From: Prochlorococcus sp. AG-311-J23
GTDB lineage: Bacteria; Cyanobacteriota; Cyanobacteriia; PCC-6307; Cyanobiaceae
Length of the DNA: 46,612 bases
Direction: 5' to 3'
Assembly (NCBI GenBank): GCA_003284375.1
Contig: QBVL01000007.1
Location: forward strand, 1 to 46,612
Numbering within the stretch: the stretch's first letter is position 1; the number at the start of each line of letters is the position of its first letter. The notes under the pieces are model-generated. The model did no database searches, was not told where the DNA came from, and saw only the letters and a list, made by a program, of their open reading frames with translations. The translations under genes and the position numbers were made by a program. Below, in pieces: positions 39,919 through 45,107 of the stretch.

Positions 39919-39958
39919 TTAAATAATTAACCAAGCTTACTGAAATCAGCAAGCTTGG
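39919..39958 (-). terminator. Hairpin at the 3' end of glyS
   Basis: CCAAGCTT (39931-39938) pairs with AAGCTTGG (39951-39958), and inside it CTGA pairs with TCAG around a tiny AA loop, with one A-C mismatch. Read on the minus strand the hairpin covers the last glyS codons and is followed by TTAATTATTT, a fair intrinsic terminator. It may also block read-through from chlP. Confidence 0.45.
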
Positions 39959-42089
39959 AAGATTGATTCCTAAGTATTGTCAATAGATTAAGTCTGTTAT
40001 TTCTTAGATTAATATCTTCCGTCATAACCATTACACTTCCTTCTCCATCAAAAAAGTTGGATAAAGTTTCGGTACTTGAGAGTAAACCATTAGCTAACAA
40101 CTTATATTTATCACGATCACAATTTACAGCTAGAGGTTTTAATTTCCCCAACACATTAAACATTTCTCTTTCACAATCCTTTTCAAATAGAGACTTATCA
40201 ACAAAATCTAAAGGATCAACAACATCTGTAGAGATAGAACTTTTAGCTGCCAACTTAGAGGCTCGAGTCACTACAGCTTGCAACAAATTAAGTGTATTAT
40301 TTTTTCTCATTTCCATCAATAATGAAGTTCGGAAATAAACGTCTGTTGGATCATCTAATAATCTTGATGTTGAAGTGGTATCTCCTGCGACTGCCTGAAT
40401 AATATCAAAGTCAACATCTTTTTCTTCTAATAAACTAATAATTCTTTGACGAAAAAATTCCTTTAGCTCGGACAAAAGATTACTTATTTCAAAAGAGAGA
40501 GAAGGGAAAAGTTGCTGCCAATAAATCAGAGAATCATTTAGTATTTTGTTGATATTTAATTGCCAATCCTTATTCCATAAAATCAATATTATTCCGTTAG
40601 CAGCCCTTCTCAAGGCATACGGATCAGATGAGCCAGAAGGCCTTTCGCCCTTCGCATAAATGCTAATAAGCAATTCAAAACGTTCCGCTAATGAAACCGC
40701 ATTACCAAGTTTATTTGAAGGAAGCGAGTCAGACGTTCCTTTAGGTTTATAATGTTCCAAAACACCGAGGCAAACATCTCTTGATTCTCCCTCGTAAAGT
40801 AAGTATTTAGATCCAATGATTCCTTGCAACTCTGGAAATTCGTCAACCATGTTACTAACTAAATCATGTTTAGAAAAATGTGCAACTTTTACAGATTTTT
40901 GAATATCTTCTTGATCAAATTCAAGTTTCGTTGTTAATAATTTAACAAGCCATTCTATTCGATTTACACGTTCATATAAAGAACCTAATCCTTCAGCAAA
41001 AGTTACATCTTTCAACTTATCAATACGTGAAGAACTACTCATTAATAAATCTGACTTTATAAAAAATGAGGCATCAGCAAACCTTGCCTTTAAGACTTTT
41101 TCATTTCCTTTAATAATTTTCTCTTTTGCGGAAGGTAATCCATTACTAATACACAAAAAAACAGGCATTAAAGTATTTCTAGCCTCAAGTGATAATGGAT
41201 CAAACTCATTATTCACCTTGTATAAGGGGATGTACCTTTGATGAACCTTCATCACAGTGCACAAAACTTCAGGGGGTAAATCAAGGAAAGTTTCATCAAA
41301 ACACCCAATCACAAGCAAAGGAGACTCAACTAAATCTGTCAGTTCATTCAAAAGGGGATCAGTCAGATCTGGCTTTACTTTTTTATCTATTTCATGATTA
41401 AGAACTAAATCATTGATACAGGAAAGGCGCCGATTCCTATCAACTGTGACTCCAACCTCCTGCAATTGATCAAAATAAGTTTTCGCATTATTTATTTCTA
41501 ATTTTGCTCCATGCAACCTATGAGGTCTTGAGATATTACCTATTTGTATTTCTGGATCACACCCTGAAATTTTAAAAGGTAGCACTTCTGAATCAAGCAA
41601 AGAAACAATCCAACGAATAGGTCTCGAAAAGCGAAAATCACCTTTACCCCATCTCATAAACCTCCTTCCTTGAATCCTGCTGATCCATCTAGGTAAATAG
41701 TCAGCCAATAAAGTAGTAACGGGCTTGCCTTTCTCAATTGATTTAGCGAAAACGAATGAACCCTTCGACGTTTCTCGAATCTCTAATTTATCAGGAGATA
41801 AATCATATCTTTTGGCAAAACCAATTGCTGCTTTTGTAGGTTTTCCATCATGAAAAGCTTGAGAAACAGAAGGACCTTTTCGTTCTGCAATATTGTCTTC
41901 AGAATATGGAGCAATCCCTTCAATCGTTAATGCAATTCTTCTGGGGGTAGTAGTTACTCTGATTTCACTAAATTTTATTTGAGAAGAATTCAAGTCATTA
42001 TTTACATTTAACTCAAGCTGGGAAATAACAGACTCAGCTATATCAGCTGGTAGTTCTTCAGTGCCGATTTCTAAAAGGTAGGTAGACAA
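39927..42089 (-). CDS. glyS: Glycine-tRNA ligase beta subunit
   Basis: This is the beta chain of the bacterial alpha2beta2 glycyl-tRNA synthetase, which binds tRNA and completes the catalytic tetramer with GlyQ. The 720-residue protein begins MSTYLLEIGTEELPADIAES, the family's N-terminal hallmark. It includes TPRRIALTIEGI, GKGDFRFSRPIRWIVSLLD, VMKVHQRYIPLY, the HD-like block AERFELLISIYAKGERPSGSSDPYALRR and a C-terminal DALR-type anticodon domain ending near the stop. The start is TTG at 42089. It is divergent from the sulfite reductase gene across 181 bases, and glyQ is not in the window. Confidence 0.96.
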   Translation of the reverse strand: MSTYLLEIGTEELPADIAESVISQLELNVNNDLNSSQIKFSEIRVTTTPRRIALTIEGIAPYSEDNIAERKGPSVSQAFHDGKPTKAAIGFAKRYDLSPDKLEIRETSKGSFVFAKSIEKGKPVTTLLADYLPRWISRIQGRRFMRWGKGDFRFSRPIRWIVSLLDSEVLPFKISGCDPEIQIGNISRPHRLHGAKLEINNAKTYFDQLQEVGVTVDRNRRLSCINDLVLNHEIDKKVKPDLTDPLLNELTDLVESPLLVIGCFDETFLDLPPEVLCTVMKVHQRYIPLYKVNNEFDPLSLEARNTLMPVFLCISNGLPSAKEKIIKGNEKVLKARFADASFFIKSDLLMSSSSRIDKLKDVTFAEGLGSLYERVNRIEWLVKLLTTKLEFDQEDIQKSVKVAHFSKHDLVSNMVDEFPELQGIIGSKYLLYEGESRDVCLGVLEHYKPKGTSDSLPSNKLGNAVSLAERFELLISIYAKGERPSGSSDPYALRRAANGIILILWNKDWQLNINKILNDSLIYWQQLFPSLSFEISNLLSELKEFFRQRIISLLEEKDVDFDIIQAVAGDTTSTSRLLDDPTDVYFRTSLLMEMRKNNTLNLLQAVVTRASKLAAKSSISTDVVDPLDFVDKSLFEKDCEREMFNVLGKLKPLAVNCDRDKYKLLANGLLSSTETLSNFFDGEGSVMVMTEDINLRNNRLNLLTILRNQSSKLADFSKLG

Positions 42090-42246
42090 AAAAATTTCCT
42101 TGCGTTCATAACAAGAGTAGATCTAAATATGAATTACTTCTACACTCTGTGTCCTAGAAAAAATTTAATCTTCAATGAATGAATCTTTAAATAGCTTGTA
42201 CCTTTATTTGAACAATTAAACACCAAACAACACGAGAAATGATACA

Positions 42247-42269
42247 GTGTAGGTACCGGTGTAGGTACC
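42247..42269 (+). repeat. 12-bp-period direct repeat immediately before the sir fusion start
   Basis: GTGTAGGTACC occurs twice (42247-42257 and 42259-42269) with one base between, and the second copy ends one base before the TTG start at 42271. Each copy contains the palindrome GGTACC. Placement directly over the translation start suits an operator for the protein's own N-terminal DNA-binding-like domain, or a leftover of a recombination site. Confidence 0.85.
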
Positions 42270-42270
42270 A

Positions 42271-44415
42271 TTGCCTAGAATCATAGAAATACCAGGAAGA
42301 TCGGGTTTTTACCTCAGGGTTGCTGTACCAAGAGGTAAATTAAGGGATGCTTTCGGAACATGTGATGTAGTAAAAAAAATAGGTAACACTAAAGAAGAAG
42401 CAGAAGAGAACATAAGCTCAGCAGAAATAGCCATACAACAAAAATTCGATGAAAAGCTCAGAGAAGAAGATGCAAGACAGATCAACAAATCCTTGCCCAA
42501 GGGAATAAGACTAGAGGCAATTAAAAATAGTAATTCAAAAGAAACTCCAAAAAACATAGAAAAAGACTTAAAAGATGCTGGATTTAGTAATGCAGCTATT
42601 GAAGCTCTGATGAATTTTGATGAAAATGAAAGTACCAATATTGAACATATAGAACAAACTGTTCCATCACCTTGCATAGCTAATAATTCACCTCGGGCAA
42701 AATTTGAACAATTTAAAGCCGATAGTAATTATTTAAATGAACCCCTACATAGTGAGTTGTTAAATGACAGCGATCACTTTACAAACGACGCAGTACAACT
42801 TTTAAAATTTCACGGTAGTTATCAACAAGACGATCGAGAGCATAGAAAAAGAGGGGGCACAGGAAAAGATTGGCAAATGATGCTTAGGCTAAGAAATCCA
42901 GCTGGTTATGTACCTGGTCCACTCTTTGTGGCGTTAGACGAGCTATCTGATCGACTAGGAAATCAAACGCTTAGAGTGACCACTCGCCAATGCTTCCAAA
43001 TGCATGGAATAAAAAAAGGAAATATTAAAGAAGTAATAGGAACAATAGTCAAATCGATGGGATCTACACTTGCAGCTTGTGGAGACGTCAACAGAAATGT
43101 AATGGCTCCTGCAGCCCCCTACGAAAAAGGTTCCTATCCTGCCGCGAGAAAATTAGCTGATGATATTGCCGATGTTTTGTCGCCCAAAAAAGCTGAAAAA
43201 ACATACATTGATTTATGGGTTGATGGTGAGATGAAATATGCTATCAAGCCCTCTTCTGAAGTTAAAAAGAATAGAAAGCTCCAACTAAAGCCTGGTGTTT
43301 TTAGTGGGGATAAGAAAGAACCTTTATATGGTGCAACCTACCTACCAAGAAAATTCAAATGTGCAACTACAGTCCCGGGAGATAACTCTGTAGACATTCT
43401 TACCCATGACATAGGCTTGGTGACGTTCACAAACAAAAAAGGAGTTCTAGAAGGATGTAATGTCTACGTAGGAGGAGGCATGGGTAGAACACACAACTTA
43501 GATACGACTTTTGCGAGGATAGCAGATCCAATTGGTTATGTAGAAGGGAAATATATCTTGGAACTTGTTCAATCTATACTCGCTCTTCAAAGAGATTATG
43601 GAGATAGAAAAACAAGAAGACATTCAAGACTAAAATACGTTTTGCATGACATGGGTGTGGATTGGTTTAAGAAACAGTTAACAACTAAGTATTTTACGGG
43701 ACAAATTGAAAACCTTAAGTACGAAGGGGATACAATACTTGAAGATTATTTAGGTTGGCATCAACAATCTGAGAAGCTATGGTTTGTTGGCTTACCTTTG
43801 TTATCAGGTAGACTTACAGGAAAGGTAAAGAAAGAGCTTAGAAATATAGTTGAAAAATATGCATTGGATGTGCGATTAACTCCCAACCAGGATCTTTTAT
43901 TGTGCAATATCGGTAATTATCAAAAAGCCAGTGTAAAAATGGCGCTGATTAATATAGGTTTTATAAATCCAGGGACTCCTGACCCATTGGCCAGACATGC
44001 CATGGCTTGTCCAGCTCTTCCATTATGTGGACTTGCAATGACTGAAGCAGAAAGATTTTTACCAGAGCTCTTAGAGCGAATAAACAATCAATTAAAAATC
44101 CTAGAAATCAACAAATCAATTCTTATCAGAGTAACAGGCTGTCCTAATGGATGTGCTCGCCCTTATATGGCCGAATTAGCTCTTGTTGGTAGTGGTTTAA
44201 ATCAATACCAACTTTGGCTTGGAGGTAGCACTAATTTAAAAAGGTTGGCGACTCCATATCTACAAAAAATGCCTATCGATGAATTAGAGCAGACATTAGA
44301 GCCTTTATTCCTTAGCTGGAAAGATACTGGAACCTCATCAAGTCTGGGGGATCATGTGACTAATCTTGGTTCTGAAAGTGTAATGTCTTTACTTACTTCA
44401 AGTGCAGCTCCATAG
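42271..44415 (+). CDS. sir: Ferredoxin-sulfite reductase with fused integrase-like N-terminal segment
   Basis: Residues about 142-714 are a normal siroheme/4Fe-4S sulfite reductase that reduces sulfite to sulfide for cysteine synthesis. Evidence: KFEQFKADSNYL, LLKFHGSYQQDDRE, TTRQCFQMHGI, CGDVNRN and the cluster ligands C580, C586, C624 and C628 (C-x5-C, C-x3-C). The first 140 residues are foreign to this family. Residues about 10-65 (SGFYLRVAVPRGKLRDAFG, then VKKIGNTKEEAEE) match the N-terminal DUF6538-like region of tyrosine recombinases, and 66-141 is a Lys/Glu/Asn-rich linker. TTG 42271 is the first start after a stop at 42262. ATG 42610 (residue 114) could begin a shorter, conventional enzyme. 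It converges on and overlaps the VanX-like gene by 64 bases. Confidence 0.9.
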   Translation: MPRIIEIPGRSGFYLRVAVPRGKLRDAFGTCDVVKKIGNTKEEAEENISSAEIAIQQKFDEKLREEDARQINKSLPKGIRLEAIKNSNSKETPKNIEKDLKDAGFSNAAIEALMNFDENESTNIEHIEQTVPSPCIANNSPRAKFEQFKADSNYLNEPLHSELLNDSDHFTNDAVQLLKFHGSYQQDDREHRKRGGTGKDWQMMLRLRNPAGYVPGPLFVALDELSDRLGNQTLRVTTRQCFQMHGIKKGNIKEVIGTIVKSMGSTLAACGDVNRNVMAPAAPYEKGSYPAARKLADDIADVLSPKKAEKTYIDLWVDGEMKYAIKPSSEVKKNRKLQLKPGVFSGDKKEPLYGATYLPRKFKCATTVPGDNSVDILTHDIGLVTFTNKKGVLEGCNVYVGGGMGRTHNLDTTFARIADPIGYVEGKYILELVQSILALQRDYGDRKTRRHSRLKYVLHDMGVDWFKKQLTTKYFTGQIENLKYEGDTILEDYLGWHQQSEKLWFVGLPLLSGRLTGKVKKELRNIVEKYALDVRLTPNQDLLLCNIGNYQKASVKMALINIGFINPGTPDPLARHAMACPALPLCGLAMTEAERFLPELLERINNQLKILEINKSILIRVTGCPNGCARPYMAELALVGSGLNQYQLWLGGSTNLKRLATPYLQKMPIDELEQTLEPLFLSWKDTGTSSSLGDHVTNLGSESVMSLLTSSAAP

Positions 44416-45107
44416 ATAGGATTACCTTGATTGCTTAACCAAGACCATAATTGATCTCCATAGCTAAAATGCCACCATTCGTTTGGGTGTTGAACAAATC
44501 CAGCCTGTTCCATAACTGAAACCAAAAGAGATCTTCTGTTATGAAAAACTTGATGTTTTGAACAAGGCATCCCTAAATTGTCATTCTTATAAAAGTCAGG
44601 ACTAGATTCAGCACCAATAAAATCTATTTCACTCCCAAGATCTAATGGATTTCCGTTCATATCAGCAAGAGTCAAATCTATTGCAGCACCAGTACTATGA
44701 GGAGGAGGTGTAAGGGGATTAGATGAAGGTTTTGCCCAGAAACGGCCAACCTCTTCAATTACATCATTAATGTCTCCATTTACAGAAAGATCATTAATAT
44801 CAATCCCTTTCGACTTACAAGTTTCTTGAATAGTGTAATTAATCATGAATTTTTGGACAGAGATCGGTCGCCAAGCATCAAACAAAGCTAACTGCAAATG
44901 GGAACTAATATCGGAAAGATATTGCTGCGCTCGTATCAATCTTTTTAAAACACTGAAGCGTAAAACCCATGGATCTAATCCAGTTGAATATGGAGCACCT
45001 AACGACATATAAGGATGAGGTGTTAGTCGAAATATAGATTCTGGAATAGAAACTAAAGGCTCATTACATTCATTAATTTTAATATTATTCCAAGGTCTCA
45101 ACTTCAT
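44352..45107 (-). CDS. D-alanyl-D-alanine dipeptidase, M15D (VanX/DdpX-like)
   Basis: This is a zinc dipeptidase that cleaves free D-Ala-D-Ala, allowing recovery of cell wall peptides. The 251-residue protein has ALFDAWRPISVQKF (substrate Arg region), zinc motif PHSTGAAIDLTL with H137 and D144, and ENWWH-type NEWWHFSYGDQLW with catalytic E210 and zinc ligand H213. There is no signal peptide, so it is cytoplasmic. The family is known from vancomycin operons, but here no vanHA or regulator is present and a housekeeping recycling role is more likely. Its 3' end overlaps the sir 3' end by 64 bases on the opposite strand. Confidence 0.9.
   Translation of the reverse strand: MKLRPWNNIKINECNEPLVSIPESIFRLTPHPYMSLGAPYSTGLDPWVLRFSVLKRLIRAQQYLSDISSHLQLALFDAWRPISVQKFMINYTIQETCKSKGIDINDLSVNGDINDVIEEVGRFWAKPSSNPLTPPPHSTGAAIDLTLADMNGNPLDLGSEIDFIGAESSPDFYKNDNLGMPCSKHQVFHNRRSLLVSVMEQAGFVQHPNEWWHFSYGDQLWSWLSNQGNPIYGAALEVSKDITLSEPRLVT

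Follow-up and report, generated by a model that had tools for sequence, protein, structure and literature searches.

The KplE1 integrase gene intS is repressed by its own product, which binds near the -10 box; the same study also examined several further integrase genes of E. coli (PMC2951348). PutA-type trigger enzymes combine an enzyme with an added DNA-binding domain and control a single target (PMC8249747), and the plastid sulfite reductase SiR/DCP68 is a nucleoid protein that binds and compacts DNA (PMC4154389). Here, we describe a sulfite reductase gene (sir) of Prochlorococcus that appears to have taken over the promoter, operator-like repeats, and DNA-binding head of an integrase gene and whose product may control its own gene.

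The locus shares part of its design with each of these systems. According to the available text on intS, integrase arm-type sites sit on the promoter of the gene, adjacent to the -10 box, and the integrase reduces intS transcription (PMC2951348); there the regulator is the recombinase, whereas at sir the layout precedes a metabolic enzyme that lacks the catalytic recombinase part. PutA likewise has an added DNA-binding domain, regulates its own locus, and acts on a single target, features that are only proposed for Sir; the available parts of the source describe no integrase-derived domain for PutA or for the other four E. coli trigger enzymes that it names (PMC8249747), and at sir the putative operator appears to have come along with the domain. 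Sir and SiR/DCP68 are both ferredoxin-type sulfite reductases with DNA binding, which was demonstrated in the plastid and is predicted here; the plastid study, in its available parts, mentions no added integrase domain and deals with compaction and general repression rather than control of the enzyme's own promoter (PMC4154389). Our literature search found no account of a Sir-integrase fusion; most subscription journals lay outside its scope, so novelty is not proven.

The window, the whole 46,612-nt stretch of Prochlorococcus sp. AG-311-J23 DNA that was analyzed, contains a sir frame that runs without an internal stop from TTG 42271 to TAG 44413-44415 (714 codons), with an in-frame TAG 9 nt 5′ of the TTG (42262). 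Pfam NIR_SIR and NIR_SIR_ferr both match the 714-amino-acid protein, as expected of a ferredoxin-type assimilatory Sir. NCBIfam PRK13504 matches at 737.9 bits (cut-off, 457) and TIGR02042 at 718.1 bits, just below its cut-off of 731.5; Phage_integrase has zero matches in this protein in Pfam, which is thus not a whole tyrosine recombinase. Alignments to the NCBIfam Sir models set in at residues 135 to 146, and a motif similar to PCIAN (residues 134 to 138) stands just ahead of the Sir core in most of the unfused relatives shown. Because NCBIfam alignments open at residue 135 or 139 and PCIAN occupies 134 to 138, the extension ahead of native Sir comes to about 132 to 138 residues, and the native N terminus behind it is nearly complete. 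At its 3′ end, sir overlaps a convergent frame (44352-45107) by 64 nt (window 44352-44415); an overlap of matches at this end is also seen in some relatives, e.g., L100.

The initial annotation held that so long an open frame would hardly persist by chance, and this is borne out: when the bases of the 420-nt extension were shuffled 20,000 times, the frame never stayed open, and the extension is 75 to 95% identical within the genus, with a pN/pS of 0.06 for residues 2 to 63. Among 29 distinct genus sequences, the start codon is TTG in 27 and GTG in 2. The same annotation had allowed for translation mainly from ATG 42610 (codon 114), an idea that fits poorly with the absence of this ATG from 3 of the 29 sequences, where the codon is CTA. 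One extra T before the start in 5 of the 29 brings an upstream ATG (window 42239) in frame with sir, so the sir start is unproven. In the window, this ATG (42239-42241) is out of frame and overlaps the -10-like region. The features of the locus are listed in Table 1, in which the name glyS is our assumption, taken from the initial annotation rather than from a family search.

Table 1. Features of the sir locus (positions in the window)
Feature	Position	Strand	Evidence or remark
-10-like hexamer TACAGT, TG one base ahead	42243..42248	+	Last base doubles as the first of repeat 1; each position 97-100% conserved (29 distinct sequences of the genus)
Putative operator/arm-type-like repeat 1, TGTAGGTACC	42248..42257	+	Each position 97-100% conserved (29 distinct sequences of the genus)
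Putative operator/arm-type-like repeat 2, TGTAGGTACC	42260..42269	+	Offset of 12 bp from repeat 1; G042 has TGTTGGTACC in two copies
Start codon TTG	42271..42273	+	GTG in 2/29
Integrase-derived N-terminal (arm-binding-like) domain, residues 2-63	42274..42459	+	Homology; dN/dS 0.041; AF2 model
Integrase-derived linker and helical segment, residues 64-118	42460..42624	+	hhalign to residue 114; G042-L082 match over 120 aa; dN/dS 0.14 and 0.071
Loosely constrained junction, residues 119-133	42625..42669	+	dN/dS 0.254 for residues 119-145
Native ferredoxin-type Sir including stop; PCIAN at 42670-42684	42670..44415	+	Pfam NIR_SIR, NIR_SIR_ferr; NCBIfam
Presumed glyS, divergent neighbor; borders the spacer that would have received the module	39927..42089	-	Synteny in 10/10 loci

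An integrase-like N terminus joined to Sir, as the initial annotation had proposed, is well supported. By BLASTP, the window extension matches an integrase with a PF00589 domain (L082) at 48% identity over 62 amino acids (E = 1e-13), and the extension of the fused Sir in G042, a genome of another genus, matches the same integrase at 39% over 120 amino acids (E = 2e-19). Pairwise hhalign of 15 Sir extensions against seven integrase N termini gave 99.6% and an E-value of 6.9e-24 over residues 1 to 114. Frames of about 420 to 440 amino acids match residues 3 to 63; Pfam confirmation covered six of these (L080, L082, L083, L084, L087, and L092), and PF00589 exceeded its cut-off in all six. From these comparisons, homology of the Sir extension to the N termini of picocyanobacterial tyrosine recombinases is near certain.

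The DUF6538-type (PF20172) pattern noted at the outset is not backed by a direct Pfam match: this family has no match in the Sir extensions of the window (E ≤ 10), L076, or G042, and the link runs through the integrase relatives, below the Pfam cut-off. Five of the six scanned integrases match DUF6538 at 12 to 24 bits, all under the 27-bit cut-off (three of them with E-values of 2.6e-5, 0.0041, and 1e-4, at 17 to 24 bits), and L092 has no listed match. Matches below the cut-off in the integrase relatives thus stand against zero in the three scanned Sir extensions; the pattern GR-x-G-x-Y ... P-x-x-L ... K-x-G-x-T-x-x-x-A is shared with the DUF6538 regions of tyrosine recombinases. A DUF6538 search of the genome itself returned nothing, as did the same search of 14 control genomes. 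Pfam, PHROGs, and NCBIfam searches of the extension gave weak matches that we judged unrelated (best, DUF4473 at 0.0059 and SAM_DprA at 0.11), tblastn of the extension in phages gave just three matches (E = 5 to 9), and two integrases searched against viral contigs gave zero.

An AF2 model of residues 1 to 79 predicts three β strands followed by a long helix at medium confidence (pLDDT, 74.6); a longer construct places an additional short helix between strands, and the long helix spans residues 41 to 74 in the models. Solved arm-binding domains consist of a three-stranded sheet and a helix. Fold searches, including Foldseek, returned no significant match and one viral integrase at an E-value of 1.1. 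Sequence matches to solved structures, namely IcmE (E = 2.7e-9) and polycystin-2 (E = 0.035 and weaker), fall at about residues 61 to 121 and were judged compositional.

Matches to the 140-amino-acid extension occur in 43 of 300 family genomes, the strong ones being Sirs of the same genus and the Sir of G042, which is 49% identical to the window extension. Among 41 genomes of the genus, our own included, 30 hold the 5′ end of sir and all 30 are fused (29 whole and one, G261, split over two contigs); in a 31st (G309), sir is represented solely by a 3′ fragment where a contig ends, and the remaining 10 gave no match or a paralogue of about 30% identity, which we take to be nitrite reductase. Every genus genome that is at least 90% complete (17 of 17) has the sir match together with the repeat pair described below, and all 19 loci that carry a name are Prochlorococcus. 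In a profile search, 57 of 400 family genomes matched: the 30 genus Sirs, the G042 Sir, and 26 others with frames of 399 to 466 amino acids, which we read as integrases, or 64 to 295 amino acids, which we read as remains. A sample of 339 genomes from the phylum added no further fusion, its five matches all lying within the Cyanobiaceae. Among the matches listed, Sirs of lineages without the fusion have frames of mostly about 600 amino acids, with some longer ones (e.g., 722, 812, and 909); none of these longer unfused Sirs, in the same sample as the 300-genome search, matches the extension.

In a tree of Sir (41 rows, 34 of them different), all fused rows fall on one side of a single branch (support, 99/97). 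Both fused lineages have a one-residue insertion, PRG[K/R]LR, that is absent from 18 aligned integrases; its presence in both points to one origin of the fusion. The glyS/sir spacer, named earlier as the place of insertion, agrees with synteny: all 10 loci keep the five tested window genes in one order, and Sir homology sets in 164 to 177 nt from glyS at the 8 unfused loci, compared with 601 and 645 nt at the 2 fused loci.

Residues 2 to 63 are as constrained as Sir itself. Across 21 genomes (leaving out L008, which is cut by a contig end, and G042), median pairwise dN/dS was 0.041 for residues 2 to 63, 0.14 for 64 to 93, 0.071 for 94 to 118, 0.254 for 119 to 145, and 0.055 for Sir residues 146 to 480. 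Synonymous change is plentiful in residues 2 to 63 (pS, 0.37; pN/pS, 0.06), which indicates that the constraint acts at the protein level.

The initial annotation did not mention the regulatory DNA, a hexamer followed by tandem repeats. Directly 5′ of the sir start lies TGTAGGTACC-GG-TGTAGGTACC, abutted by TACAGT (window 42243-42269). At each position of AATGATACAG and of the two repeats, conservation across the 29 distinct genus sequences is 97 to 100%, and the 2-bp spacer between the repeats varies (GG in 20; GT, AG, and GC in 3 each). Columns farther upstream are conserved at 48 to 100%, and since some of these are highly conserved, conservation is not unique to the repeats. A sigma-70 scan before sir found no -35/-10 pair. 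At the G042 sir, TGTTGGTACC occurs twice, abutted by TAAACT at the same place, and both copies carry the identical A-to-T difference.

In the genus, the repeat pair TGTWGGTACCNNTGTWGGTACC has a single copy in 30 of 41 genomes, and these are exactly the ones with a sir 5′ end. With up to two mismatches, 34 of 400 family genomes match, comprising those 30, the G042 sir, an integrase of G156, and two other places; at this stringency, nothing points to a wider regulon. The two other places (G358 and G323, both with two mismatches) have no integrase or Sir within the surrounding 8 kb. Four viral contig stretches with the pair contain repeat-rich or unrelated frames and gave no integrase or Sir by tblastn. 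The sole other single TGTAGGTACC in the genome itself (L117, about position 1500; G000:C1:144112) lies within a long coding frame, and we judged it to be chance.

The same layout recurs at the related integrase genes. We scored 31 integrase regions (L155 left out) for promoter repeats with a period of 11 to 14 bp; 17 of them, and sir, reached a score of at least 9, each with its own word, and the other 14 scored below 9. Scores this high came up in 17 of 9,600 shuffled sequences and in 10 of 1,994 tiled windows. Of 18 integrases, 8 have a TANNNT hexamer whose last base coincides with the first base of repeat 1, against a background of 0.020 per position; for this count, repeat starts were placed by eye, and the integrases are partly related. 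Among 20 proteins, identity of the domain and similarity of the repeats are correlated (Spearman rho, 0.29; 0 of 5,000 Mantel permutations on Pearson r), and the relation is weaker among 12 nonredundant proteins (rho, 0.20; p = 0.052). L082, the integrase whose domain is nearest to that of Sir, has repeats among the most similar to those of sir.

In 11 of 15 elements, further tandem copies of the 8- to 13-bp promoter repeat, as a pair or an array, are found 2.6 to 21.7 kb downstream of the integrase gene; permuted repeats gave such distal pairs in 2 of 900 trials. The distal pair was not found in the other four, of which G145 and G389 were viewed over 6.5 and 20 kb only. Outside both arrays, three of four elements carry att-core-like direct repeats of 21, 23, and 41 bp, located 106 to 137 bp before the integrase gene and again past the distal array; in the remaining element (G101), no direct repeat exceeds 12 bp. 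Of 378 random 1.7-kb control pieces, 9 shared a word of exactly 21, 23, or 41, presumably because they fell on the att-core-like site itself; in all the others, no shared word exceeded 16. The recurring promoter repeat is seen, for example, at G086:C1:123166-123420 and 130251-130273 (L158-L161), with further loci at L162-L173 and L174-L192. The att-core-like repeats of G086 (L160) and G156 (L171/L172) share a common end, ATCGACCTG. ARAGORN found no tRNA gene in any of 36 loci, which include 32 integrase neighborhoods, and none beside the att-core-like repeats of G086 and G156; in four 80-kb regions it found three tRNA genes, all tens of kilobases from the integrase gene, giving no sign of a tRNA as the insertion target.

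Arrays at both ends, enclosed by att-core-like repeats, match the anatomy of an att core with arm-type sites. Given this anatomy, the integrase N-terminal domain is most simply an arm-binding domain, with the promoter repeats as its putative arm-type sites. Compared with the integrase elements, sir retains the promoter pair alone.

We propose that, in an ancestor of Prochlorococcus, the spacer between glyS and sir once contained the tyrosine-recombinase gene of an integrative element and that this gene would there have lost its catalytic part. A self-control cassette, consisting of the promoter, two tandem arm-type sites, the start codon, and an N-terminal arm-binding region of about 118 to 132 residues, would have been fused in frame to sir. 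The N-terminal domain of the 714-residue Sir would then bind both TGTAGGTACC repeats at its own promoter, most likely with one molecule per repeat, side by side, and abundant Sir would lower sir transcription, making it a single-target trigger enzyme. To this reading, in which a captured integrase self-control cassette leads Sir to bind and repress its own promoter, we assign a probability of about 0.62. For DNA binding near the promoter, the repeats give strong indirect support. Repression is the most likely sign of control because repeat 1 overlaps the -10-like hexamer. The promoter, sites, and reader would have arrived together and are still conserved as a set, for which autogenous control of sir is the simplest function. 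Ferredoxin-type Sir carries siroheme and a 4Fe-4S center. A tentative extension, which we hold at rather low confidence, is that the siroheme or iron-sulfur state or the substrate load gates DNA binding, so that sir transcription would read photosynthetic electron flow or sulfite directly.

The alternative that survives best, although we think it unlikely, gives the captured domain another role in the protein: it would stabilize, tether, or oligomerize Sir or bind DNA nonspecifically, and the repeats could be kept merely as promoter or 5′ leader DNA. Compaction of DNA by the plastid nucleoid enzyme SiR/DCP68 supports such a looser DNA role (PMC4154389, in its available parts), the modeled helix at residues 41 to 74 could mediate contacts, and some DNA upstream of the repeats is likewise conserved. 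Against this, the repeats are nearly invariant, yet the spacer between them varies, the two G042 copies changed by the same A-to-T difference, and the pair is found at sir in all 30 genomes that have its 5′ end, with no second occurrence in any of them.

A second alternative is positive or dual autoregulation, in which the Sir domain binds the repeats and activates transcription or only switches it with redox, sulfite, or siroheme loading. The same anatomy would fit, and a ferredoxin-driven enzyme with siroheme and a 4Fe-4S center could, from what is known of the family, sense its own state. An operator overlapping the -10 is in a place typical of repressors, and the sir repeats overlap the -10-like hexamer. 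With the integrase precedent also negative in the available account (PMC2951348), we consider activation or switching improbable.

It is also conceivable, at very long odds, that the fusion is passive, with only the promoter useful, the N-terminal domain a tolerated relic, and Sir working without it. The loosely constrained junction (dN/dS, 0.254) would suit a relic; the domain itself, at 0.041, is held about as tightly as Sir at 0.055, and the extension has been retained by two genera and by every genus genome that holds the sir 5′ end (30 of 30). An annotation artefact, with translation from ATG 42610 or later and a frame open by chance, could appeal to the ATG at codon 114 in 26 of 29 sequences and is exceedingly improbable in the face of 0 open frames in 20,000 shuffles, protein-level selection, CTA at codon 114 in the other 3, and a start codon that varies between TTG and GTG only.

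Prochlorococcus is an abundant phototroph with few regulators. If Sir represses its own promoter through the captured cassette, an enzyme would have become its own regulator in one step by acquiring, as a unit, the domain, promoter, and binding sites of a mobile element. The likely rule that the promoter repeat recurs at the far end of an element may be of use in delimiting integrative elements of picocyanobacteria, and for sulfur assimilation in Prochlorococcus the sir locus would offer a regulatory circuit that can be tested.
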